Source: Rhabdothermincola sediminis (lineage in GTDB: Bacteria > Actinomycetota > Acidimicrobiia > Acidimicrobiales > Acidimicrobilacustridaceae). Taken from it: a stretch of DNA of 64,000 bases. The DNA lies in contig NZ_JACFSZ010000001.1 in assembly GCF_014805525.1 (NCBI RefSeq), positions 124,001-188,000 on the forward strand. The letters are read 5' to 3'. This document shows, one piece after another, positions 45,536 through 62,541 of this stretch. The position numbers were made by a program, and so were the translations under genes. The notes under the pieces were generated by a model that saw only the letters and a list, made by a program, of their open reading frames with translations, was not told the DNA's origin and did no database searches. Position 1 is the first letter of the stretch. Each line of letters begins with the position of its first letter.

Positions 45536-46315
45536 GTGGAGCGACGGACATCTGGCGTGACGGCGTGCACGGCGGTGGTGGTGGGCATCGGTCCGGGTGA
45601 TCCCGGGATGGTGACCGTGCAGGCACTCGAGGCGCTGGCGTCGGTGGATGTCGTGGTGGGATTCGACAAGGGCGAGCGGGCCGCCGAGCTGCTGGCGTTC
45701 CGCCGGGAGGTGCTCGACCGGGCGAGTGCTGGCACGCCGCCACGGTTGGTCACGTTGGACGATCCGCAGCGAGATGTCGACGGTGCCTACGCTCACGCGG
45801 TGCGGGACTGGCACCTGGCCCGCGCCGAGGTCCTCGAGCGATTCTTGGTCGAGGAGGTCCGGCCAGGCGCTCGGGTGGGTATGCCGGTCTGGGGTGACCC
45901 AGCGCTGTACGACAGCACGCTGCGGCTGCTCGACGAGCTGAACGCTCGGGGCCGCATCCGGGTCGATGTGGAGGTGGTCCCCGGTGTCAGCAGCCTGCAG
46001 CTCCTGGCCGCTCGCCACGGCATCGTGTTGCACCGGGTGGGGGGATCACTACTCGTGACGACCGGACGCCGACTGCGGGAGGGTCTACCCCCCGGCATCG
46101 AGGACGTGGCGGTGTTCCTGGACCGCTCGTGCAGCTTCACCGAGTTGGGGGATAAGGGCTGGCACATCTTCTGGGGGGCGTACCTGGGCATGCCGGGGGA
46201 GGTGCTGGTGTCCGGACCGCTCGGGGAGGTGGCCGAGGCGATCGTGCAGCGGCGTGAGGCCCTGCGGCGCGAGCGGGGCTGGATCTTCGATCTGTACCTG
46301 CTCCGCAGGCGCTGA
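45536..46315 (+). CDS. cobF: Precorrin-6A synthase (deacetylating) CobF
   Basis: This SAM-dependent C1-methyltransferase of aerobic cobalamin synthesis releases acetate during ring contraction chemistry. The 259-residue product has the tetrapyrrole methylase Gly loop GIGPGDPGMVT near the N terminus, PVWGDPALYD, VVPGVSSLQ and a CobF-like VFLDRSCSF stretch. GTG 45536 is chosen from the -10 element. It is separated by several kilobases from the two main cob units and stands alone between an ABC transporter and furA. Confidence 0.88.
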   Translation: MERRTSGVTACTAVVVGIGPGDPGMVTVQALEALASVDVVVGFDKGERAAELLAFRREVLDRASAGTPPRLVTLDDPQRDVDGAYAHAVRDWHLARAEVLERFLVEEVRPGARVGMPVWGDPALYDSTLRLLDELNARGRIRVDVEVVPGVSSLQLLAARHGIVLHRVGGSLLVTTGRRLREGLPPGIEDVAVFLDRSCSFTELGDKGWHIFWGAYLGMPGEVLVSGPLGEVAEAIVQRREALRRERGWIFDLYLLRRR

Positions 46316-46378: not shown

Positions 46379-49058
<2,680 letters not shown>

Positions 49059-51450: not shown

Positions 51451-51885
51451 TCAGCGCTCCCGCTCGGAGCGGTGACGGGGTGCGGGTCGGCCCTGGGCGG
51501 GCCGGGCGACCGCCGCGGTGGCGTACCGGCTTCGGCCCGCGGGCTCGAGCAGGCGCCCACCCGGCCCGGCCGCGAGCAGCGCAGCGGTCCGGGCCACCTG
51601 CGCGGGAAGACCCCGCCGACGGGACACGGGTGGACTCGCCGCGAGCAGCTCGTCGTCGTCGATGCCCACCACCGGGCAGCCGAGCGCCACGCGAGGGTCG
51701 GTGGCGAATCGTGTCCGGGTGGCGATCGCCCCCGGCGGGAACGGGAGGCCGTGGCGGGACAGCAGGTCCCGGACGAGCTGCTCCACCTCCTCCGCGCTCG
51801 CCCGGGAGGCGAGCCCGATGCCGACGATCACCTCTGGTCCATCCGCACGGCCGTCACGACGCCCGCTTCCCGGAGGCGAGCTCAT
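51451..51885 (-). CDS. cobE: CobE/CbiG C-terminal domain protein
   Basis: The 144-residue protein corresponds to the CbiG C-terminal (CobE) domain: VIVGIGLASRASAEEV, a helix with LRDLLSRHG-like spacing, then VGIDDDELLAA. Family members assist cobalamin synthesis, possibly binding an early precorrin, but their exact reaction in the aerobic route is unsettled. A basic tail follows the domain. It is embedded between cobL and cobC with a 4-bp overlap at its start. Confidence 0.8.
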   Translation of the reverse strand: MSSPPGSGRRDGRADGPEVIVGIGLASRASAEEVEQLVRDLLSRHGLPFPPGAIATRTRFATDPRVALGCPVVGIDDDELLAASPPVSRRRGLPAQVARTAALLAAGPGGRLLEPAGRSRYATAAVARPAQGRPAPRHRSERER

Positions 51886-53093
51886 CGCCGCGCCCGGCCG
51901 ACGAACACCGGGTTCGTCGGTTCCAGGCGGAGACCGGCGTTCCCGATCGGTACGGCGTGGTCGACGTGCAGCTGTACCAGCTCGTCGAGCACCGAGGTCG
52001 CGGCCAGCACGTGCTCGAGCACGGTGAAGGTGGCGGTCAGCACGCCGTCTTCCTCCAGGCGGTCCCAGGCAGCTCGCAGCACCGGCGGCCCACCGCCGCC
52101 GACGAAGATCCGGTCTGGTGCGGGCAGGCCGTCGAAGGCTTCGGGCGCGCTGGCCTGGATCACCTCGACCCGCGCGGCGACTCCGTGGGCGATGGCGTTC
52201 CGCCGGATCCGTTCGGCATCAGGCTCGGCACGCTCGATGGCGTACACCATGAGCTGCGGCTGGACCGTGGCGGCTTCGATCCCCACGGAGCCGCTCCCCG
52301 CCCCCACGTCCCACAGCACCCCTGCACCGCCCAGGTCCAGCTTCGCCAGCACCACGGCCCGGACCTCCGGCTTGGTGATCATCCCGTCGCGGTGTTCGAA
52401 GGCTCCCACGTCGGCTCCCCACGAGACACGGGGCCACCCCGGTCCGCAGCGCGGAGGGTCGGCATCAGCGAGCAGCAGCACCACCGACAACGGGTCGAAG
52501 CGGCCAGCGGCGAGCCCGTCGAGGTCGGTCCGCACCACCTGCTGGTCGGGCTCACCCAACCGGCTGGCCACCACCACCCGCCGAGGTCGACAGCCGGCAG
52601 CCACCAGCGCCGCGCCCAGGCGCTCGGGGGGGTGCTCGGGTGAGGTCAACACGGCGGCCTTCGGGCTACGCACGGCGCGCTCCACCGCCGCGGCCAGCGG
52701 GCGGCCGTGGGCGGAGATGACCTCGGCGTCGTCCCAGGACTCGCCCGCGGCCGCCCAGGCGAGCGACACCGACGACGGGGCGGGATGCACCGCCACCCGG
52801 GCACCGAACCGGCGGCGGGCTAGGCGAGCGAACCCGAAGAACCCGGGATCGCCGGAGGCCAGCACGCACACCCGGCGGTTCGCCGCCAGCGCTGCGGCGA
52901 TGCGGTCGAGCACGCCGTCCAGCGGGCCGGCCAGCTCGACGCGCTCGCAGGCCGCATCGGCGAGCTGCTCGGCGTGGGTGAGGTGCCGTGGTGCGCCCAC
53001 GAGCAGGTCGGCCTCCCGGAGGGCCTCCCGCGCCCGGGGTCCGAACACCTCCCCCCCGATCACGCCGACCATGTCGAGGTGCCCGCCGGTCAT
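51882..53093 (-). CDS. cobL: Precorrin-6Y C5,15-methyltransferase (decarboxylating) CobL
   Basis: This 403-residue bifunctional enzyme methylates C5 and C15 and decarboxylates the C12 acetate of precorrin-6B. The N-terminal CbiE tetrapyrrole methylase half (about 1-205) opens VGVIGGEVFG and includes LASGDPGFFGFA. The C-terminal CbiT half has a Rossmann SAM motif DVGAGSGSVGIEAA (about 260). ATG 53093 overlaps the cobM stop. Confidence 0.91.
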   Translation of the reverse strand: MTGGHLDMVGVIGGEVFGPRAREALREADLLVGAPRHLTHAEQLADAACERVELAGPLDGVLDRIAAALAANRRVCVLASGDPGFFGFARLARRRFGARVAVHPAPSSVSLAWAAAGESWDDAEVISAHGRPLAAAVERAVRSPKAAVLTSPEHPPERLGAALVAAGCRPRRVVVASRLGEPDQQVVRTDLDGLAAGRFDPLSVVLLLADADPPRCGPGWPRVSWGADVGAFEHRDGMITKPEVRAVVLAKLDLGGAGVLWDVGAGSGSVGIEAATVQPQLMVYAIERAEPDAERIRRNAIAHGVAARVEVIQASAPEAFDGLPAPDRIFVGGGGPPVLRAAWDRLEEDGVLTATFTVLEHVLAATSVLDELVQLHVDHAVPIGNAGLRLEPTNPVFVGRARR

Positions 53094-53926
53094 CGTGGCC
53101 CCTCCGCGACCGGGCCGGGCGACGGCGAGCGGTGGACCGGTGCGCCCCGAGCTGCGTCGACTCGGGACGCGCTCCGCCGGAACCGGGTGCCGTAGGTGGG
53201 ATCGTACACGTGGCTGCGGCGCCCACCCGCCGCCGCGAGCGCCGGGCCGACGAGGATCATGGTGGTGTCGGTGAGACCGGCCCGCGCCACGGTCGCGGCC
53301 AGCTCGCCGATCGAGGTGGTGAGCAGCTGCTCGTCGGCTCGGCTCACCCGTGACGCGACCACGACCGGGGTCGACGCCTCGTAGCCCGAACCGTCCGCCA
53401 GGAGCTCCTCCACCAACTGCTCCACGTGCCGCACCGAGAGGAACAGCGCCATGGTGGCCCCCGCGGTAGCGAAGGCGCGCACCGTCTCGCGCTCGGGCAC
53501 GGAGGCGGCGGTGCCCGCGGCCAGCCGGGTCAGGACCACCGACTGCGCCACCCCCGGCAGGGTGAGCTCGCAGCCCGCGGCCGCGGCGGCGGCGGTGAAC
53601 GACGAGACACCCGGGACGACCTCGAACGCTCGGTCATGGGCGACGCACCAGGCGATCTGCTCGCCGATCGCCCCGTAGAGTGTCGGGTCGCCGGAGTGCA
53701 GCCGCACGATGGCCGCGTCCGGGTGTGCGGCGAAGACCTCGCAGATCTCCTCGAGGGTCATGGACCGCGAGTCGTGGACGACCGCGTCGTCCCGGCAGTG
53801 CTCGAGCGCTTCCGGCGCGACGAGCGAGCCTGCCCACACGACCACGTCGGCGTTGCGCAGCCGGTCCACGGCCCGCACGGTGAGGAGGTCGGGCGCGCCC
53901 GGGCCGGCGCCCACGAACGAGATCAT
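53090..53926 (-). CDS. cobM: Precorrin-4 C11-methyltransferase CobM
   Basis: This SAM-dependent methyltransferase acts on C11 of precorrin-4. The 278-residue product shows VGAGPGAPDLLT (4-15), a VWAGSLV segment, LHSGDPTLYGAIGEQ and VVPGVSSF, all typical of CobM/CbiF. The last 40 residues are an extra basic tail (YGTRFRRS onward). The start and stop overlap its neighbours, placing it second in the operon after the RHH fusion. Confidence 0.92.
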   Translation of the reverse strand: MISFVGAGPGAPDLLTVRAVDRLRNADVVVWAGSLVAPEALEHCRDDAVVHDSRSMTLEEICEVFAAHPDAAIVRLHSGDPTLYGAIGEQIAWCVAHDRAFEVVPGVSSFTAAAAAAGCELTLPGVAQSVVLTRLAAGTAASVPERETVRAFATAGATMALFLSVRHVEQLVEELLADGSGYEASTPVVVASRVSRADEQLLTTSIGELAATVARAGLTDTTMILVGPALAAAGGRRSHVYDPTYGTRFRRSASRVDAARGAPVHRSPSPGPVAEGPR

Positions 53927-54801
53927 CGCCCGGTCGCAGCGCCGGCGAGGGCGGGGACGATGACGGCGCTCAGATAGGCGATCGGGCCGTCGGGAGCGCT
54001 GCGAGCCGGCACCATGCGCTCACCGGGCAGTCCGGTCAGCTCGGCGAGGAGCGCGTCGTCCCTCCCGGTCTCCTCGGCCAGGGTGCGCACCACCTCACCG
54101 GTGGTGTCGGCCTTGTGCAGGACCACGGCATCCCCGGCGCGGGCGGCGTCGGCGGCACGCCGGGGATCCGCGGTGACGACCAGACTCCCACCGCCCCCGC
54201 CGAGGGCGATCGCCGCCTCGGCCGCCGCCGCCTGGTAGGCGGTGATGCCAGGCACCGCGACGATCGGGACCGCAGGTCGGGCGGGGCGGATGCGCTGCAC
54301 GAGGTCGGGGAAGACGGTCCACTGCGCCGGATCGCCGAGCACGGCCACCGCGACGAGCTCGCCGACGTCGAGCGCCGCGGACACGGCGCCGACCAGCTCG
54401 GACATCGACCGCCCCCGGGCCTGAGGGTCGAGGTCGAAGGCGACGCGCTGGATGGCTGCCAGCGGGACCGTCGAGCGGACGACGGCTTCGGCCCGGCCGA
54501 TGGAGCGGGCGTCGGTGCTGACCGTGACCACCCGGTCGGCCTCGGCGAGCACGGCGACCGCCCGGCGGGTGATCAGCGACGGGTCTCCGGGGCCGACCCC
54601 CACGCCGACCAGGCCCGGGCGGGGAAGGGCGAGCGACGCTGGATCGCTGTCGGCCGGCGTGCCCGGCGCCGGCTGGTCCCGGCTCAGGAGGAGGGTGATG
54701 GCGTGGCGGATGAGGTCCGCCTCGGAGCGACCGGCGGCAGACGCCCGCTGCGAGAGCGCCTGTTTCAGATCGTCGGGGAGGTAGATCGACGACTTGTGCA
54801 C
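53923..54801 (-). CDS. Ribbon-helix-helix domain fused to CobI/CbiL-like methyltransferase
   Basis: The 292-residue protein starts with a complete CopG/Arc-type RHH domain (1-42: a SSIYLPDD strand, a helix to about 22, then GRSEADLIRHAITLLL). After a Pro-rich linker (43-62) comes a tetrapyrrole methylase with VGVGPGDPSLIT (about 65-76), VAVLGDPAQW, VPGITAYQAA and PIAYLSAVIV. The methylase is most like precorrin-2 C20-methyltransferases, but a separate full CobI lies at 61768. It heads the cob operon, overlaps cobM, and its promoter carries GTAGGGCA repeats. A regulator sensing a precorrin or SAM is proposed. Confidence 0.85.
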   Translation of the reverse strand: MHKSSIYLPDDLKQALSQRASAAGRSEADLIRHAITLLLSRDQPAPGTPADSDPASLALPRPGLVGVGVGPGDPSLITRRAVAVLAEADRVVTVSTDARSIGRAEAVVRSTVPLAAIQRVAFDLDPQARGRSMSELVGAVSAALDVGELVAVAVLGDPAQWTVFPDLVQRIRPARPAVPIVAVPGITAYQAAAAEAAIALGGGGGSLVVTADPRRAADAARAGDAVVLHKADTTGEVVRTLAEETGRDDALLAELTGLPGERMVPARSAPDGPIAYLSAVIVPALAGAATGR

Positions 54802-54807
54802 GCCCGG

Positions 54808-54854
54808 ACCGTACCGCAGGTAGGGCAGAGGTAGGGCAGGTGATGTCGCCTACC
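54808..54854 (-). promoter_or_regulatory. Promoter with tandem GTAGGGCA operator-like repeats
   Basis: TACGGT (54808-54813, minus strand) lies 6 nt before GTG 54801. GGTAGGGCA occurs at 54819-54827 and 54830-54838, 11 bp apart (about one helical turn), covering the -35 region. An inverted CCTACC lies at 54849-54854. The same octamer occurs in the cobB/cobG promoter. Confidence 0.65.
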
Positions 54855-54916: not shown

Positions 54917-54945
54917 TTGCCCCGCGGGTGGGGGGTAGGTAGTGT
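54917..54945 (+). promoter_or_regulatory. Promoter of the RCC1-repeat protein gene
   Basis: TTGCCC (54917-54922), a 17-nt spacer and TAGTGT (54940-54945) give a sigma-70-like promoter. The leader to ATG 55007 is about 55 nt. Confidence 0.55.
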
Positions 54946-55006
54946 CCCGGCCGACCATGTGCTCGGCGCGGCCCGCATGGCGGACCCCGGACGAGGGAGG
55001 CGGGCC

Positions 55007-56551
55007 ATGACCGCACCACGAGACTACCCCCACCCCTGGCGTTCTTCTGCCACCCGTCGGGTCGTCATGGTGATCACCACCTTGCTCCTGGCTGCCCTGG
55101 CGGTACTGGTGCCTGAATCCCCAGTGCAGGGGTCGGGGTCGGCGGTGGCGTCGGTGGGCGACGTGTCGGTCGTCGAGGGTGACAGCGGCCCCCGGGTGGT
55201 GAAGGTGCCCATCACCCTCTCCGAACCCGCTCCTGGTCCGCAACATGTGGTCGCCACCGTCGCGGCGGGCACGGCCACGGTGGGCGTTGATTTCAAGAAG
55301 GCCTATTCCAAGACCGTTGCGTTCAAAGCCGGCCAGACCACCAAGAACGTGTCGGTCGGGGTGCTGCCCGACACCATCGCCGAGGGCGACGAGACCGTCA
55401 CCGTCACCCTGTCGTCCCCCAGCTCGGGGCTGACCATCGGCGTCGGCACCGCCACGGTCACCATCCGCGACGACGACACCCCGCCCCCACCGCCCCCCAG
55501 CCGCACCGTGTGGGCCTGGGGCCACAACACCTACGGGCAGCTCGGTGACGGGACGGCCACGAGCCGCAACGCTCCGGTGCAGATCGGCACCGGCACCGAC
55601 TGGGCGTCGGTCGCCGCCGGCGGCTACCACACGGTCGGGGTCCGCACCGACGGCACCCTGTGGGCCTGGGGCTACAACGCCGGCGGGCAGCTCGGTGACG
55701 GCACCACCACGAACCGTAACGCCCCGGTGCAGATCGGCACCGGCACCAACTGGGCCACCGTCGCCGCTGGCGGCTACCACACGGTCGCCGTCAAGACTGA
55801 CGGCACGTTGTGGGCCTGGGGCTACAACGCCTACGGGCAGCTCGGTGACGGGACGACCACGAGCCGCAACGCCCCGGTGCAGATCGGCACCGGCACCGAC
55901 TGGGCGTCGGTCGCCGCCGGCGGCAACCACACGGTCGCCGTCAAGACCGACGGCACGTTGTGGGCCTGGGGTTGGAACGCCGTCGGACAGCTCGGTGACG
56001 GCACCACCACGAACCGCAACGCCCCGGTGCAGATCGGCATCGCCACCAACTGGGCCACCGTCGCCGCCGGCGCGGCCCACACGGTCGGGGTCGGCACGGA
56101 CGGCACCTTGTGGGCCTGGGGCTACAACGCCTACGGGCAGCTCGGTGACGGCACCACGACGGACCGCAACGCTCCGGTGCAGATCGGCACCGGCAGCGAC
56201 TGGGCGTCGGTCGACGCCGGCGAGTCCCACACGGTCGCCGTCAAGACGGGCGGCACCCTGTGGGCCTGGGGCTACAACGGCTACGGGCAGCTCGGTGACG
56301 GCACCACGACGAACCGCAACGCTCCGGTGCAGATCGGCACCGGCAGCGACTGGGCGTCGGTCGCCGCCGGCGGCTACCACACGGTCGCCGTCAAGACGGG
56401 CGGCACGTTGTGGGCTTGGGGCTACAACGGCTACGGGCAGCTCGGTGACGGCACCACCATGAGTAGCAGTGCTCCGGTGCAGATCGGCACCGGCACCGAC
56501 TGGGCCACCGTCACCGCCGGCGCGTACCACACGGTTGCCGTCAGGACGTGA
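55007..56551 (+). CDS. Secreted Calx-beta plus seven-repeat RCC1 protein
   Basis: This 514-residue exported protein has a signal peptide (hydrophobic core about 17-38) and a Calx-beta-like domain (about 45-155: [21 protein letters not shown]). A Pro6 linker is followed by seven nearly identical 50-residue RCC1 repeats, each running from T-x-WAWG through GQLGDGT to HTVAV. Seven repeats suit a closed beta-propeller, but the last stops two residues short. No C-terminal anchor is present. ATG 55007 has GGGAGG 6 nt upstream. A binding or adhesion role is likely but unproven. Confidence 0.85.
55505..56548 (+). repeat. Seven tandem 150-bp coding repeats (RCC1 units)
   Basis: Units of 150 bp repeat with high nucleotide identity, including silent positions, which points to recent duplication or gene conversion. 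They encode the RCC1 blades of the host gene. Confidence 0.85.
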
Positions 56552-56666
56552 TCGTCAGCTCGATCGGCAGGCATGCATCGGGCTCCGGGAGGCTGCCGGG
56601 ACCCGGGCCGACCAGTCGGCTACCCTCTCGGCGCACCGATCCGTCGTCCTCGGCCCAGCTCGTTCC

Positions 56667-58505
56667 GTGCCCAGCTCGTCGTCATCGTCCGCCCTCGCTC
56701 GCCCAGGTTGGTCCGACCGCCGATCACGCTGGCTCAGCGTGATCGTGGCCGGTTTGGTGGCGCTCGCGATCGCGACCGGTCCGCTGGCGCTCGCGGCTCC
56801 GGGCGACCTCGATCCAGCCTTTGGAACGGCTGGCGTGCAGCTGCTGACGGAACCGGGCTTCCGGCTCGGGGGGATGGTCCGGCAGCCGGATGGGCACCTC
56901 GTGGTCGCCGGTACCGTGTACAACAGCCCGAACGTGACTGGTGTGGTCCTGCGCTTCACGAGCGAAGGCTCGCCGGACACCACCTTCGCCAGCGGCGGCC
57001 GCTTCGAGCTGCCGGACACGATCATCGAAGCGCTGGTCGCTCGGCCCGATGGATCGTTGCTGGCGGGTGGGGTCGCCTTCGACATCGACGGTTCGATGCC
57101 GGGATTGGTGATCGGCCTCACGTCGAGCGGGGACATCGATACGTCGTTCGGGGTCGGCGGGGTGGCCCAGATCGTGAAACCCGGCTTCAGCCTGACCGTG
57201 CGGGGACTGGCATTGACCTCGGACGGGGCCATCGTCGCCACCGGCTCCAGCAACCAGGACTACGGCTCGCAAGACGATGTGCTCCTCGCCCGGTTCAGTT
57301 CCACTGGTGTGCTCGATACGTCGTTCGGAGGCGGCGACGGGCTGGTGTTCACCAACGTCGATGACACCGACATCGGCATGGCGGTGGCCATCCAGAGCGA
57401 TGGCCGGATCGTGGTCGTCGGCGCCTCCGCACTGGACCTCACGAGCAACGACTGGATCGTGCTCCGCTACCTGACGGACGGGGCGATCGACAGCTCGTTC
57501 GGGACCGCCGGCGTGGTGAAGGTGAACCAGGGCGGGTGTTGCTCGGGAGACCTCGACTCCGGGGACGTCGCTACCGCCGTGGTGATCCAGCCGGACGGCG
57601 GGATCGTGGTGACGGGATTCGGTCAGCCGGTGAGGGGCTACCTGATCCGGCTTCTTCCCAGCGGCCAGTTCGACCCGACGTTCGGGGTCGGTGGACGGGT
57701 GGTCGTCGATCTCGGTGGTGGGCGGTTCGAGGACATCGCGCTCGACGGCACAGGGATCCTCGCCGCGGGGAGGGTGGTGCTGCCACCGGTGGGCCCTGGC
57801 TGTCCACGGGTGCAGTTCGTCCTCGCACGGTTCGAGGGCGATGGTGCCTTGGACCCCACCTTCGGCACCGCTGGGGTGGTGACCACCCCGGAAACGGGCT
57901 TCGGGAGCCAGGTACTCCTCGAGCCTTCGGGGCGGATCGTGGTGGGGGGTTCGGGGATCGACCCCCAGTGGTGCACGAGGTCTGATGTGGTGCTGGCGGC
58001 CTACGAAGGCGAGCAGGTCGAGCCGCCGACCACGACGACGACGACCACCTCCACGACGACGGTGGCGCCGACCACGACGACGACGACCACCTCGACCACG
58101 ACGACGGTGGCGCCGACCACGACGACCACCTCGACCACCTCGACCACCTCGACCACGACGACGGTTCCGCCCACGACGACGACGTCGACGACGTCCACCA
58201 CCACGACGACGGTGGCGCCGACCACGACGACCACCTCGACCACGACGACGTCGACGACGTCCACCACCACGACGACGGTGGCGCCGACCACGACGACCAC
58301 CTCGACCACGACGACGGCACCGGCGACGGGCGGCATGATGACGACGATCGGCGGTGCGACGGCGACGTCAGGGTCCCCCTCGAGCCTGCCCCGCACCGGT
58401 TCAGACCCGTCGTGGGCGGTGTTGACGGCGCTGGTGGCGATCGGTGGTGGCTCGGTCCTCGTGGTGCTGGCCCGGCGTAGCCTCGGCTCCCGCGCTCGCC
58501 GCTGA
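56667..58505 (+). CDS. LPRTG-anchored secreted protein with seven delta-60 repeats
   Basis: From GTG 56667 the 612-residue product has a signal peptide and a seven-repeat propeller-like domain of delta-60 units, recognisable by D-x-x-F-G-x-x-G (LDPAFGTAG, PDTTFASGG, IDTSFGVGG and so on). A roughly 100-residue Thr-rich linker encoded by ACC/ACG runs follows (58024-58330). The end is a sortase signal: LPRTG, a hydrophobic helix and an Arg-rich tail. It is probably cell-wall linked. TACCCT at 56621-56626 may be the -10; the start codon is uncertain. Confidence 0.8.
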   Translation: MPSSSSSSALARPGWSDRRSRWLSVIVAGLVALAIATGPLALAAPGDLDPAFGTAGVQLLTEPGFRLGGMVRQPDGHLVVAGTVYNSPNVTGVVLRFTSEGSPDTTFASGGRFELPDTIIEALVARPDGSLLAGGVAFDIDGSMPGLVIGLTSSGDIDTSFGVGGVAQIVKPGFSLTVRGLALTSDGAIVATGSSNQDYGSQDDVLLARFSSTGVLDTSFGGGDGLVFTNVDDTDIGMAVAIQSDGRIVVVGASALDLTSNDWIVLRYLTDGAIDSSFGTAGVVKVNQGGCCSGDLDSGDVATAVVIQPDGGIVVTGFGQPVRGYLIRLLPSGQFDPTFGVGGRVVVDLGGGRFEDIALDGTGILAAGRVVLPPVGPGCPRVQFVLARFEGDGALDPTFGTAGVVTTPETGFGSQVLLEPSGRIVVGGSGIDPQWCTRSDVVLAAYEGEQVEPPTTTTTTTSTTTVAPTTTTTTTSTTTTVAPTTTTTSTTSTTSTTTTVPPTTTTSTTSTTTTTVAPTTTTTSTTTTSTTSTTTTTVAPTTTTTSTTTTAPATGGMMTTIGGATATSGSPSSLPRTGSDPSWAVLTALVAIGGGSVLVVLARRSLGSRARR

Positions 58506-58520
58506 TGGCGGGCGACCCGG

Positions 58521-59924
58521 TCAGGATGGCGACTCGCCGGCGGTCGGTGTGACCAGCTTGCCGGTCCGGCAGGTCTCGACGAAGCGGGTGGCGAGATGCT
58601 CGTGACCCGCGAGGTGCAGGTGCAGGTACGACGCCAGCATCCGGGGGTTCCCGAAGCCGCCGGTGGTCACCCCCTCCCGTCCTCGCATCCGTAGCGCCTC
58701 ACCGGCGGGGCGCACGGCCGAGTAATGGAACTCGTGCCCGCGCAGTTCGGTCCCCGGCGGGCCGAACGGTGTCGGCATGCAGGTCGTCGCGGTGCGGTAG
58801 CCCAGGGTGGGTCGAGGGGTCATGGTCGCTTCGGCTTCCACCACAGCGGCCATCGGGTGCCCGTCGATGGCCCGGGTGAGCCACAGCAGGCCACCGCACT
58901 CGGCCCAGACCACGAGCCCGCGGCGGGTGCCGTCTCGCAGCGCGGCGTGCAGCTCGACGTTGCCGGCGAGCTCCGCGGCGTAGATCTCGGGGAAGCCGCC
59001 GCCTGCGTACAACCCGTCGATGGACGGCGGGAGTGAACGGTCGGCGAGCGGGTCGAAGGGGAGCAGCTCGGCCCCTGCCCGCTGCAGGACCTCCAGGTTG
59101 TCGGGGTAGCAGAAGCTGAAGGCCCGCCCGGTGGCCACGGCGATGCGCACCCGGGATGGCCGACTCGGCCCAGCTGAGCGCTCCTCACCACCGGAGTCCG
59201 GCACGGGGAACCGTGAGGCATGCGCAGCCAGCTCCCGCACGCCCCCCAGGTCGACCTGCTCGGTGATGGCGGCGGCCAGCGCCTCGAGGTTGCGCACCAG
59301 CTCGTGTCGCCGCTCGATGACCGGCACCAGGCCCAGGTGCCGGTCAGGCCAGTGAAGACGGTCGTCCCGCCGGAGGGCACCGAGCACGGGCACACCGGTG
59401 GGCGCCAGCGCGTCGCGCAGCATCCGCTCGTGGCTCTCGGTGGCCACCCGGTTGAGGATCACCCCCCCGACCCGGACCCGAGGGTCGAACGTGGCGAACC
59501 CGTGGACGGTCGCGGCCACCGACCGGCCGGTCCCTGCCGCATCCACCACCAAGAGCACCGGTGCGCCGAGCAGGGCGGCCACGTCTGCCGTCGACGACGG
59601 TGTGGCGTCCGCTGCACCGTCGAAGAGTCCCATCACCCCTTCGATCACCAGCAGGCCGCAGCCGGTGGCCGCCCGGGCGGCCACTTCGAGCACCGCGTCC
59701 TCCCCGCACATCCACGGGTCGAGGTTGCGTGAGGGGCGACCGGTGGCGAGCTCGTGGTAGCCAGGGTCGATGTAGTCCGGCCCGACCTTTGCCGCTGCCG
59801 TATGCACGCCCGCCCGAGTGAATGCGGCGAGCAGGCCGGTGGCGACCGTGGTCTTGCCCGCGCCGGAGCGGGTCCCCGCGATCACCACCCTCGGGGGGAG
59901 GACGCCCAGGCGATCGGAAGTCAT
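58521..59924 (-). CDS. cobB: Cobyrinate/hydrogenobyrinate a,c-diamide synthase CobB
   Basis: This ATP- and glutamine-dependent enzyme amidates side chains a and c. The 467-residue protein has the P-loop GTRSGAGKTTV (about 17-27), a central DTB-synthase-like domain with VIEGVMGLFDG and NRVATESHERML, and a class I glutaminase-like domain ending in WAECGGLLWL and the terminal HEFHYSAV motif. ATG 59924 is picked because TACGGT lies exactly 6 nt upstream, as for the RHH fusion gene; an upstream in-frame ATG falls inside the operator region. Confidence 0.92.
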   Translation of the reverse strand: MTSDRLGVLPPRVVIAGTRSGAGKTTVATGLLAAFTRAGVHTAAAKVGPDYIDPGYHELATGRPSRNLDPWMCGEDAVLEVAARAATGCGLLVIEGVMGLFDGAADATPSSTADVAALLGAPVLLVVDAAGTGRSVAATVHGFATFDPRVRVGGVILNRVATESHERMLRDALAPTGVPVLGALRRDDRLHWPDRHLGLVPVIERRHELVRNLEALAAAITEQVDLGGVRELAAHASRFPVPDSGGEERSAGPSRPSRVRIAVATGRAFSFCYPDNLEVLQRAGAELLPFDPLADRSLPPSIDGLYAGGGFPEIYAAELAGNVELHAALRDGTRRGLVVWAECGGLLWLTRAIDGHPMAAVVEAEATMTPRPTLGYRTATTCMPTPFGPPGTELRGHEFHYSAVRPAGEALRMRGREGVTTGGFGNPRMLASYLHLHLAGHEHLATRFVETCRTGKLVTPTAGESPS

Positions 59925-59930
59925 CGCCTC

Positions 59931-59975
59931 ACCGTAGGTCACGTAGGGTGCCATGCCCTACATAGGTGCTAGGGT
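59931..59975. promoter_or_regulatory. Divergent cobB/cobG promoter with TAGGG repeats
   Basis: Minus-strand TACGGT (59931-59936) serves cobB, and plus-strand TAGGGT (59970-59975) lies 9 nt before cobG ATG 59985. Between them GTAGGG (59943-59948) and CCCTAC (59956-59961) form an inverted repeat. TGCCCTAC (59954-59961) is the exact complement of the GTAGGGCA found upstream of the RHH fusion gene. TAGG also occurs at 59935 and 59963. Confidence 0.6.
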
Positions 59976-59984
59976 CCCGCAGCC

Positions 59985-61124
59985 ATGCGCAGCTCCACCC
60001 CGGTCCCCCCGGCAGTGCGCGGGTGGTGTCCCTCACTGGCCGAACCCCTCGCGAGCCGAGATGGCTGGTTGGTGCGCCTTCCGGTCGGCTGCCGACCGGT
60101 GAGCTCCGACCAGTGGCGGGTGGTCGCCACCCTGGCGGAGACCCGGGGCAACGGCCTGGTGGAGATCACCCGCCGGGGGAACCTGCAGGTGCGCGGCTTG
60201 GCGGTCAGGCACCTGGACCGAACGGCAGAGCTGTTGGCCGGGGCCGGGCTGGCCAACCGGAACCCGGCCGCCGACGGGCAGCGAGCCGTGGTCTGCGATC
60301 CGCTCCTTGACATCGGCGCGTCTCCCGACCGGGCCAGTGCCCGGCGCGAGGTGGTCCGCCGGCTGGAGCAGCTCGTGGTGGATCTCGGCGACGGTCTCCC
60401 AGCCAAGTGGTGGGCGGTGGTCGACGGCGGCGGGCCGTGGCCGGTTCCCACCTCATCGGCGGATGTGGCGGTGGTCGACCATGGGTCCTCCTGGCAGGTT
60501 CGGGTGGCAGGCGCCGTCGTGGCCAGCGCCGGCGACCCACTCGCCATCCTGCATGCGGTCGCAGCGGTGATCCGTCGCTGCGCCGACGCCGGTTGCCGGG
60601 CTCGGGACCTGCCCGGCGTGGCTGACGGGTGGGGCCCCATGCGGTCCGAACCCGTCGAGCGGGAGGCCTGGTGGGGGATCCGGAAGGTGGGTGATCGCGC
60701 CGTTGCGCCGGGCGCGCCGCCGCTCGGCGTCGCCACCGCCGATGCACTCCACCTGTTGGCCCGTGTCGCCGAAGGGCCGGTCTCGGTGCGACCCGAGCCG
60801 GGTCGAGGAGTGCTGCTCGTGGCCTCCGGCGAGGAAGCCGCCGACGCCGGGGCCGCCGAGCTCGCCGGTACCCTCGAACAGCTCGCCGCGGTGGGCTGGG
60901 TGGTCTCCCCGCGCGACCCCCGACGTTGGGTGTCGGCGTGCATCGGTTCGCAGGGCTGCCCCAGCGCGCTGGTGGATACCCACGCCCTGGCGCGTGCCCG
61001 TCTGGCCGACACCCGGGGCCGGCGGCTCCACATCTCGGGCTGCCCGAAGCGCTGCGGTGCCCCGCCCGGGGTGCGTGAGCTAGTGGCCACGCCCGATGGC
61101 CTTCACGTGGAGGAGGTTGGGTGA
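59985..61124 (+). CDS. cobG: Precorrin-3B synthase CobG
   Basis: This oxygen-using iron-sulfur monooxygenase hydroxylates precorrin-3A to precorrin-3B, the step that commits to the aerobic pathway. The 379-residue sulfite/nitrite-reductase-like protein has two ferredoxin-like half domains with VEITRRGNLQVRG. The cluster ligands are CIGSQGC and GCPKRCG near the C terminus (C-x5-C and C-x3-C). Its end overlaps cobH (GTGA). It is first in the plus-strand cobG-cobH-cobI-cobJ/U operon. Confidence 0.92.
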   Translation: MRSSTPVPPAVRGWCPSLAEPLASRDGWLVRLPVGCRPVSSDQWRVVATLAETRGNGLVEITRRGNLQVRGLAVRHLDRTAELLAGAGLANRNPAADGQRAVVCDPLLDIGASPDRASARREVVRRLEQLVVDLGDGLPAKWWAVVDGGGPWPVPTSSADVAVVDHGSSWQVRVAGAVVASAGDPLAILHAVAAVIRRCADAGCRARDLPGVADGWGPMRSEPVEREAWWGIRKVGDRAVAPGAPPLGVATADALHLLARVAEGPVSVRPEPGRGVLLVASGEEAADAGAAELAGTLEQLAAVGWVVSPRDPRRWVSACIGSQGCPSALVDTHALARARLADTRGRRLHISGCPKRCGAPPGVRELVATPDGLHVEEVG

Positions 61125-61771
61125 GCACCAGGCTCGAGTACGAGCGTGATGGCGCAGCGATCACCCGAGGGTCGTTCGCGCTGATCCGAGAGGAGCTCGG
61201 TGAGCGGCTGGCGTGCTTCGGTGTGCTCGAACCCGTGGTGGTGCGCATGGTGCACGCGGCTGGGGACACCGGGATCGTGGAGCTCCTCCAAGCCAGCGAT
61301 GGCTTCGTCGCCGAGGCCACGGGTGCCCTCCGGCGGGGGGCCACGGTGTGGTGCGACAGCGAGATGGTGGCCCGGGGCATCACCCGGGCCCGGCTCCCGG
61401 CCGGCGTGGACGTTCGCTGCGCGTTGGGCGACCCGGAGGTCCCGGAACTGGCCCGGCGTCTCGGCACCACCCGGGCCGCCGCGGCGGTCGAGCTCTGGCT
61501 CGACACCCTCGACGGCGGGCTCGCGGTGGTGGGCAACGCGCCGACCGCGCTGTTCCGGCTCCTCGAGCTCATGCTCGACGGCGTCGCCCGCCCAGCGGCG
61601 GTGATCGGGGTGCCGGTCGGCTTCATCGGCGCGGCGGAGTCCAAGGAGGCGCTGGCCACCCTGCCCCATGAGGTGCCGTACCTCACCCTCCACGGCCGGC
61701 GGGGAGGCAGTGCCATGGCCTGCGCGGCGGTGAACGCCCTGGCCGACGAGCGGGAGGTCGTGCCCCGATGA
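61121..61771 (+). CDS. cobH: Precorrin-8X methylmutase CobH
   Basis: This enzyme moves the C11 methyl to C12, giving hydrogenobyrinic acid. The 216-residue product has the catalytic histidine in VVRMVHAAGDTG (about 43-54), VWCDSEMVARGI, GNAPTALFRLLEL and the C-terminal GFIGAAESKEAL. All are signatures of CobH/CbiC. It overlaps both neighbours by 4 bp. Confidence 0.93.
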   Translation: MSTRLEYERDGAAITRGSFALIREELGERLACFGVLEPVVVRMVHAAGDTGIVELLQASDGFVAEATGALRRGATVWCDSEMVARGITRARLPAGVDVRCALGDPEVPELARRLGTTRAAAAVELWLDTLDGGLAVVGNAPTALFRLLELMLDGVARPAAVIGVPVGFIGAAESKEALATLPHEVPYLTLHGRRGGSAMACAAVNALADEREVVPR

Positions 61772-62541
61772 ACGTCACCCCCGCGGGACAGGGTGGCGGC
61801 GCAGTCGGCGACCCGGGCCGCCTCTACGGCCTGGGGGTCGGCCCGGGCGATCCCGAGCTCTTGACCCTCCGGGGGTTGCGGGTGCTGCAGAGCTGTCCGG
61901 TCGTGGCGTACGTGGCAGCCCGCGGTCGGAGAGGCCACGCCCGGTGCACCGTCGAGCAGTTCCTACGCCCGGGACAGACCCTGGAGCGGCTCGAGTACCC
62001 CGTGACCGTCGAGCCCGTGGGGGTCGAGGTCTACCGCTCACTGCTGGATCGGTTCCACGACGACGCGGCCGAGCGCCTCGCCGCCCACCTCGACGCCGGT
62101 CGCGACGTGGCGGTGCTCAGCGAGGGCGACCCGCTGTTCTACGGCAGCTACATGCACCTGCACATCCGGCTCGCGGACCGCTTTCGAGCCGAGGTGATCC
62201 CTGGCATCACCTCGGTCTCCGCAGCGTGTGGGCTGGCCGGTATGCCCCTGGTGTCCGGCGACGAGCGGTTCACGGTGGTGACCGCCACCATGCTGGCCGA
62301 GGACCTCAAGCAGGCACTGGCCGGTACCGAAGCCGTGGTGATCCTCAAGATCGGTCGCCACCTCCAGCGGGTGGTCGCCGCGCTCGAAGCCACCGGGCGG
62401 ATCGACGACGCGATCTACGTCGAGCGCGCCAGTCACCCAGACCAGCTCGTGATGCCCGTGCGCGAGATCGGCTCCCGCACCCCTCCGTACTTCTCACTGG
62501 TGCTCGTGCCCGGCCCTCGGCTGGCCGGGCTGGGACGGTGA
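61768..62541 (+). CDS. cobI: Precorrin-2 C20-methyltransferase CobI
   Basis: This SAM-dependent methyltransferase acts on C20 of precorrin-2. The 257-residue protein shows LYGLGVGPGDPELLTL (about 18-33), AVLSEGDPLFYGSYM, VIPGITSVSAACG and a final PPYFSLVLV, the standard CbiL/CobI series. It is the canonical version in the window, contrasting with the RHH-linked relative at 53923. Start and stop overlap cobH and cobJ/U. Confidence 0.93.
   Translation: MNVTPAGQGGGAVGDPGRLYGLGVGPGDPELLTLRGLRVLQSCPVVAYVAARGRRGHARCTVEQFLRPGQTLERLEYPVTVEPVGVEVYRSLLDRFHDDAAERLAAHLDAGRDVAVLSEGDPLFYGSYMHLHIRLADRFRAEVIPGITSVSAACGLAGMPLVSGDERFTVVTATMLAEDLKQALAGTEAVVILKIGRHLQRVVAALEATGRIDDAIYVERASHPDQLVMPVREIGSRTPPYFSLVLVPGPRLAGLGR

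Follow-up and report, generated by a model that had tools for sequence, protein, structure and literature searches.

A ribbon-helix-helix domain fused to a CbiL-type methyltransferase as a candidate autogenous regulator of cobalamin genes in Acidimicrobiia

The first gene of a cobalamin (cob) operon in Rhabdothermincola sediminis raises the question of whether its product serves as an enzyme of the pathway, as a regulator of the pathway genes, or as both. The window analysed here is the whole stretch of 64,000 nucleotides in which this operon lies. It had been predicted from its letters that the gene encodes a ribbon-helix-helix (RHH) DNA-binding domain joined to a CobI/CbiL-like methyltransferase, and that the protein may sense precorrin or SAM and regulate its own pathway.

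The fused gene, its surroundings and its distribution

The domain assignment is borne out. The gene is a single uninterrupted frame of 292 residues, the frameshift regarded as a possible source of error did not materialise, and both Pfam domains lie above their cut-offs: RHH_1 (residues 5-39) scores 26.7 bits against a cut-off of 20.5, and TP_methylase (residues 64-266) scores 103.5 bits. The top NCBIfam match is cobI_cbiL (TIGR01467), with 121.5-122 bits, below its cut-off of 163.25. A structure predicted with AlphaFold2 from an alignment of 24 fused sequences (mean pLDDT 83.8) has helices at residues 10-23 and 27-41 and a methyltransferase domain, separated by a linker (about residues 41-60) modelled at low confidence; the closest solved structures to the predicted fold are the CbiL enzymes 8xj3, 2qbu and 2e0k. 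The fusion of an RHH domain to a CbiL-type methyltransferase is confirmed, and it is embedded in the following genes.

53923-54801, minus strand: RHH-CbiL fusion gene, 292 residues, GTG start, 5' of cobM and cobL
54676-54801, minus strand: RHH DNA-binding domain, residues 1-42 (Pfam, conserved columns)
53953-54612, minus strand: CbiL-type methyltransferase domain, residues 64-283 (Pfam, fold prediction)
53090-53926, minus strand: cobM, its start sharing 4 nt with the stop end of the fused gene
51882-53093, minus strand: cobL (CbiE-CbiT), by profile match
58521-59924, minus strand: cobB, its probable start revised from 59954
59985-61124, plus strand: cobG, short of its equivalog cut-off (164.3 bits against 234.8)
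61121-61771, plus strand: cobH, by profile match
61768-62541, plus strand: canonical cobI, 298.4 and 216.6 bits, both above cut-off

The linkage to cob genes thus holds, as does the claim of a separate canonical CobI at 61768. Past cobL lie a cobC-type gene and a cobD/cbiB gene, and a canonical CobF (270 bits) is encoded at about window positions 45575-46309. The interval between the fused gene and cobB is occupied by two frames that we take to carry RCC1-like repeats (54917-56551) and a long threonine-rich tail with LPRTG near its end (56469-58505); the ORF at 46743-49058 presumably encodes a KatG-type catalase-peroxidase. Beyond the end of the window are cobS and a cobT-type gene, followed by a cobalamin riboswitch (C1:191044-191234; L075:3044-3234) about 3 kb past that end and directly before cbiMN, the ATPase gene of an ABC transporter, a cobQ/cobB-type gene and cobN. 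Within the window, no Rfam family, the cobalamin riboswitch RF00174 included, matched at its gathering score. The cluster seems to be under two controls, with the RHH site acting on ring synthesis and the end-product riboswitch on cobalt uptake and the late steps.

A search for the two-domain architecture across the class recovered full-length fusions in 12 of 395 genomes; a set of 99 genomes, comprising that of the window and others of its family and order, includes three other full-length matches (G077, G078 and G047). In a draw of 396 genomes from the phylum, 108 matched the fused protein at E ≤ 1e-20, only the window genome and G134, both of the same order, doing so from residue 2. A species scan (84,980 species, each represented by a single genome), in which fused loci were counted among the best 80 matches listed, added metagenome assemblies titled Acidimicrobiales, Acidimicrobiaceae, Acidimicrobiia, Actinomycetota or 'Actinomycetes'. 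At least 26 distinct fused loci were thus obtained, 14 in genomes of the same class and at least 12 in the species-scan records with actinobacterial titles, after exclusion of six duplicate fused rows (and three duplicate unfused ones). A second RHH-CbiL copy in G393 (C135:19260-20131), its match split in two, was left out of this count. Of 24 fused proteins, the window protein included, all contain TP_methylase and 23 have an RHH_1 match at E ≤ 0.001.

Another 21 genomes of the class match at E ≤ 1.9e-33 from residue 44 or later only, that is, without the RHH part. The concern that most homologues would lack the RHH domain and that the fused start would simply be misannotated is therefore correct in number (21 against 12) and wrong in its reason, since the fused rows form a tree group of their own and the unfused loci lack the candidate operator described below. 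In a tree of 82 rows, 22 fused rows form one group nested inside unfused CbiL, with a support of 81/86 that is below the starred level of the tool, and four canonical CobI sequences are placed apart from them; the branch leading to the window row is long (1.91), and the tree includes no CobF row. Rows left out were L089, L112, L018 and L109 (domain start not located), L129 and L132 (cut) and the duplicates L122, L131 and L141.

Candidate operators and promoters

Binding of the protein had been suspected at 54819-54854 and at 59931-59975, and a real repeat is present in each of the two intervals, a direct one in the first and an inverted one in the second.

54820-54838, minus strand: candidate operator, direct repeat TGCCCTACCTCTGCCCTAC (genome pattern search, upstream comparison)
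54808-54813, minus strand: candidate -10 box of the fused gene, TACGGT, spaced 6 nt from its GTG start, in a putative leaderless promoter
59943-59961, no strand assigned: candidate operator in the cobB-cobG interval, inverted repeat GTAGGGTGCCATGCCCTAC
59931-59936, minus strand: candidate -10 box of cobB, likewise TACGGT, 6 nt upstream of the putative ATG start at 59922-59924

The direct repeat, in the form TGCCCTAYSTN{3,5}CCCTAY, occurs once in the 3.29 Mb genome of the window. Its core, CCCTAY-N5/6-CCCTAY, lies within 150 nt upstream of the start at 22 of the 26 distinct fused loci, in forward orientation at 20 and reversed at 2. None of 58 distinct unfused loci has it in the 350 nt upstream (121 nt for L130), a difference with a Fisher p of 1.6e-16 for rows that are not independent; such small values overstate independence because the fused loci share descent. 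Random 150-nt windows of the loci, true sites included and 27 fused rows taken in (one a duplicate), contain the repeat in 49 of 20,000 cases. The 98 relatives contain five matches to TGCCCTAYSTN{3,5}CCCTAY, of which three precede fused genes. The stricter pattern TGCCCTACGTN{3,5}CCCTAY has 5 matches in the 395 class genomes, all of which precede an RHH start, three of fused genes and two of standalone RHH genes. The four fused loci without the direct repeat are L113 and L129, where the inverted repeat precedes cobB of the same gene run, L121, which is cut within cobB, and G047, in whose 19.9 kb neither repeat was found. One direct-repeat match among the 98 relatives lies in G078:C201.

The inverted repeat (GTAGGGN{6,8}CCCTAC) likewise has a single exact match in the window genome. 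In the form GTAGGG-N7-CCCTAY, it is situated at the divergent cobG promoter in the window, G007, G153, G185 (L126), L113 and L129, while L112 has a direct repeat instead of the inverted one, between cobG and the fused gene. The pattern GTAGGGN{6,8}CCCTAC was matched in 14 of 98 genomes, with the reversed control commoner in some; the surroundings were viewed in the window genome, G007 and G004. Matches with one mismatch are not enriched, the window genome having 5 in the forward pattern, the exact one included, against 27 in the control, and one such inverted repeat in this genome (G000), at G000:C14:83617, falls within a long coding frame and was discarded as a chance occurrence. In G007, which belongs to the same family, the inverted repeat lies between cobB and cobG (L043:497-515), and no RHH-CbiL or similar RHH was found in its 340 contigs (90% complete, the contig being cut in cobB). 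In G004 a similar inverted repeat with N8 (L074:5120-5139) stands at the start of a frame that we read as a MazF/PemK-type toxin. The window genome itself yielded no second RHH of the fused-gene type, the next match having an E-value of 0.06.

A natural control is provided by G438, which has the same cluster with cobI, without the fusion gene and without both repeats. The order at this locus (L234, G438:C77) is cobJ-cobI-cobH-cobG and, divergently, cobB-cobM-cobL-cobF; neither an RHH-CbiL gene between cobB and cobM nor either repeat was found in its 19.9 kb. The fused gene is therefore losable beside CobI and not indispensable, and the notion that RHH-CbiL is always kept beside CobI was dropped. 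Five clusters possess both genes (window, G153, G185, L112 and L129), a count that is biased because the clusters were located by the RHH-CbiL search.

The positions of the repeats also bear on how they might act. A TANNNT box 6-8 nt before the start is found at 17 of the 26 fused loci, against 37 of 5,581 random ATG/GTG triplets in fused loci. The first possible start of cobB, at 59954, falls inside the inverted repeat; the ATG at 59922-59924, which TACGGT precedes by 6 nt, is likelier, and with this start both the fused gene and cobB would have TACGGT at exactly 6 nt and a repeat just upstream. A study of Mycobacterium tuberculosis describes TANNNT as the common -10 motif, with its centre 7-12 bp before the point where transcription begins, and the toxin-antitoxin genes of that species as mostly leaderless (PMC3898074). 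Given the spacing of the box, the repeat would cover a leaderless promoter, a geometry that would suit repression by occlusion. The conservation of the repeats across genomes, at fused as against unfused loci, supports the regulatory role that had been proposed for the fused protein.

State of the enzyme domain

The original prediction held that the fused copy is not needed for the CbiL step. This stands for the window, where CobI is present, and fails for the family: the fused copy is the sole CbiL above the TIGR01467 cut-off in 11 of 14 fused genomes, G078 (L003) among them, and therefore the fused protein is probably still a working CbiL in most of the fused genomes tested. A separate CobI above the cut-off occurs in the window genome, G153 and G185, whose fused copies fall below it (122, 149 and 160 bits, respectively), and cobI is also near cobG in L112 and L129.

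The sequence of the window copy has changed unevenly. Columns were taken as conserved if 23 other fused proteins agreed in them to at least 90%. Of the 63 such columns in the enzyme part (residues 64-292), 15 are changed in the window copy, against 0-9 in the other fused proteins by leave-one-out; of the 13 in the RHH domain, none is changed. The altered positions include T154, Y161, S162, Y229 and G232, and the motifs GDPNxYST and YKGG have become GDPAQWTV and HKAD. The median identity of the window copy to the other fused proteins is 50% for the RHH domain and 39% for the methyltransferase, the corresponding medians for pairs of the other proteins being about 52% and 54% (L129 and L132 were left out of the medians and the column counts). 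This pattern is consistent with an enzyme losing its catalytic function while its DNA binding stays under selection. The glycine-rich loop and the GDP motif are retained, so that the loss of catalysis is not certain. With a second CobI present and the enzyme part seemingly decaying while the RHH domain is kept, the window copy is probably now mainly a sensor.

Precedents, proposed regulation and alternatives

Two known systems are comparable. PutA, the trifunctional proline utilization A protein, likewise bears an N-terminal RHH domain on a metabolic enzyme and acts autogenously to repress the genes of its pathway (PMC5293562). The fused proteins similarly unite an RHH domain and a pathway enzyme in one chain, and conserved candidate repeats at the RHH-cbiL and cobB/cobG promoters may correspond to operators at own promoters; PutA differs in its unrelated enzyme and pathway and in its membrane switch. 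In CoaR of Synechocystis, a DNA-binding domain is likewise joined to a corrinoid-pathway enzyme fold, a probable tetrapyrrole sensor; its DNA-binding domain is MerR and not RHH, its enzyme part is CbiC/CobH-like and not CbiL, and it activates cobalt efflux and not B12 synthesis (PMC7689651). Neither MerR nor CbiC was matched in the fused window protein by Pfam at E ≤ 0.01. The earlier supposition that such fusions have no cobalamin precedent is contradicted by CoaR for DNA-binding domains in general; for the RHH domain, no description of an RHH-CbiL or other RHH-cobalamin enzyme fusion was found among the matches listed for open PMC papers. With an RHH-enzyme repressor and a DNA-binding corrinoid-enzyme fold already known, the RHH-CbiL pairing appears to be a new variant. 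The same domain as in the fused protein, by sequence and predicted fold, constitutes the CbiL/CobI precorrin-2 C20-methyltransferases (2qbu, 8xj3, 2e0k), which are without the N-terminal RHH and linker and whose family cut-off the window copy does not reach.

The RHH part has its closest solved relative in VapB26 (PDB 5x3t; E 2.5e-9 with a profile of four fused proteins), and the two standalone genes preceded by the same repeat as the fused genes encode RHH_1 proteins, each followed by a PIN-domain gene. VapB antitoxins, however, have a toxin-binding tail where the fused protein has CbiL, and the gene following the fused gene is cobM and not the PIN toxin of a VapBC pair. Neither exact repeat was found in 26 loci around other standalone RHH relatives, which weakens an antitoxin origin to two cases. 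From two shared operators and one structure match, the RHH domain, operator and leaderless start look like a cassette derived from a VapB-type antitoxin.

We propose that the fused protein is an autogenous repressor built on CbiL. The RHH domain would dimerise and bind CCCTAC/GTAGGG half-sites located on the -10 box of leaderless promoters or immediately before it, thereby shutting off its own operon (RHH-cbiL, cobM and cobL) and, in cobG-type clusters, also the promoters of the divergent genes cobG and cobB. The CbiL domain would couple the pathway to DNA binding, in a manner somewhat like PutA, with occupancy by precorrin-2 (the substrate), the product or SAM/SAH altering the binding. In most fused genomes tested the sole CbiL may be enzyme and regulator at once, and in the window the copy may be decaying as an enzyme and keeping its RHH domain to act mainly as a sensor beside the second CobI. 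The probability of the whole proposal is put at about 0.6, a value lowered because of G438, of the 26 standalone loci without the repeat, and of a ligand part that shares its odds with the first alternative below. DNA binding and autoregulation, taken without the ligand part, are very likely on the evidence, which is comparative throughout.

The strongest alternative, unlikely and yet a serious contender, is ligand-blind autoregulation, in which the RHH domain holds the level of the CbiL operon constant in the manner of an antitoxin and the enzyme domain senses nothing. An operator and an RHH domain suffice for this and resemble antitoxin modules, and the fused protein, as the sole CbiL above cut-off in 11 of 14 genomes, is needed as an enzyme anyway. 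However, cobG-type clusters carry an operator at the cobG promoter too, and the enzyme part of the window copy is changed and yet not deleted despite a canonical CobI; a sensor therefore fits somewhat better. It is decidedly improbable that the window copy serves as a second CbiL/CobI with full activity, its RHH domain being an unimportant appendage. Its glycine-rich loop, GDP motif and predicted CbiL fold would allow activity, whereas the conserved repeats beside the fused gene and at cobG, the unchanged RHH columns set against 15 changed enzyme columns, and the presence of the canonical CobI all argue otherwise. The placement of the fused gene before cobM in a cobG-type cluster might suggest that its product stands in for a missing CobF in C1 methylation, a reading with hardly any credence, as the canonical CobF of the same genome leaves no gap to fill and the fused rows fall among CbiL in the tree of CbiL and CobI rows. 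That a wrong start or a frameshift has merged separate RHH and methyltransferase genes, a thought prompted by the commonness of unfused CbiL in the class, has a negligible chance: the frame is single, the junction recurs in 26 distinct loci, and a repeat and -10 box are positioned for the RHH start.

Bacterial control of B12 synthesis is viewed mainly as riboswitch feedback by the end product. Repression by RHH-CbiL, if it occurs, would differ from that feedback in being intermediate-sensing control, exerted by a protein repressor that derives from an enzyme early in the pathway; it would also suggest how an antitoxin promoter-operator-RHH unit becomes a domesticated metabolic regulator, and would offer within one group a series from bifunctional enzyme-regulator to pseudo-enzyme sensor. 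A fuller reading joins three parts. A toxin-antitoxin cassette of leaderless promoter, operator and RHH would have been captured whole on a B12 enzyme, which then controls its own pathway from an early intermediate; beside the second CobI, the copy in the lineage of the window would be a catalytically dead precorrin sensor over both corrin-ring operons; and the B12 riboswitch next door would govern the adjoining cobalt-uptake, CobQ and CobN genes. All three together are offered tentatively, as somewhat doubtful, their odds being lowered by the 26 standalone loci without the repeat.

The cobalamin riboswitch RF00174 likewise occurs at B12 genes of this group, before some unfused cbiL genes and before cbiMN, and is an RNA element, unlike the RHH-CbiL protein. 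Matches of this type were found upstream of 6 of 24 unfused cbiL loci (a subset of the unfused loci) at E ≤ 1, two of them passing the gathering score, and directly before none of the fused cbiL genes in the 14 of 26 fused loci searched (Fisher p 0.067). Replacement of the riboswitch by the RHH domain is only suggestive. At the fused locus L090, a riboswitch lies about 1.4 kb away on the other strand, and in each of four fused genomes searched riboswitch matches occur elsewhere.
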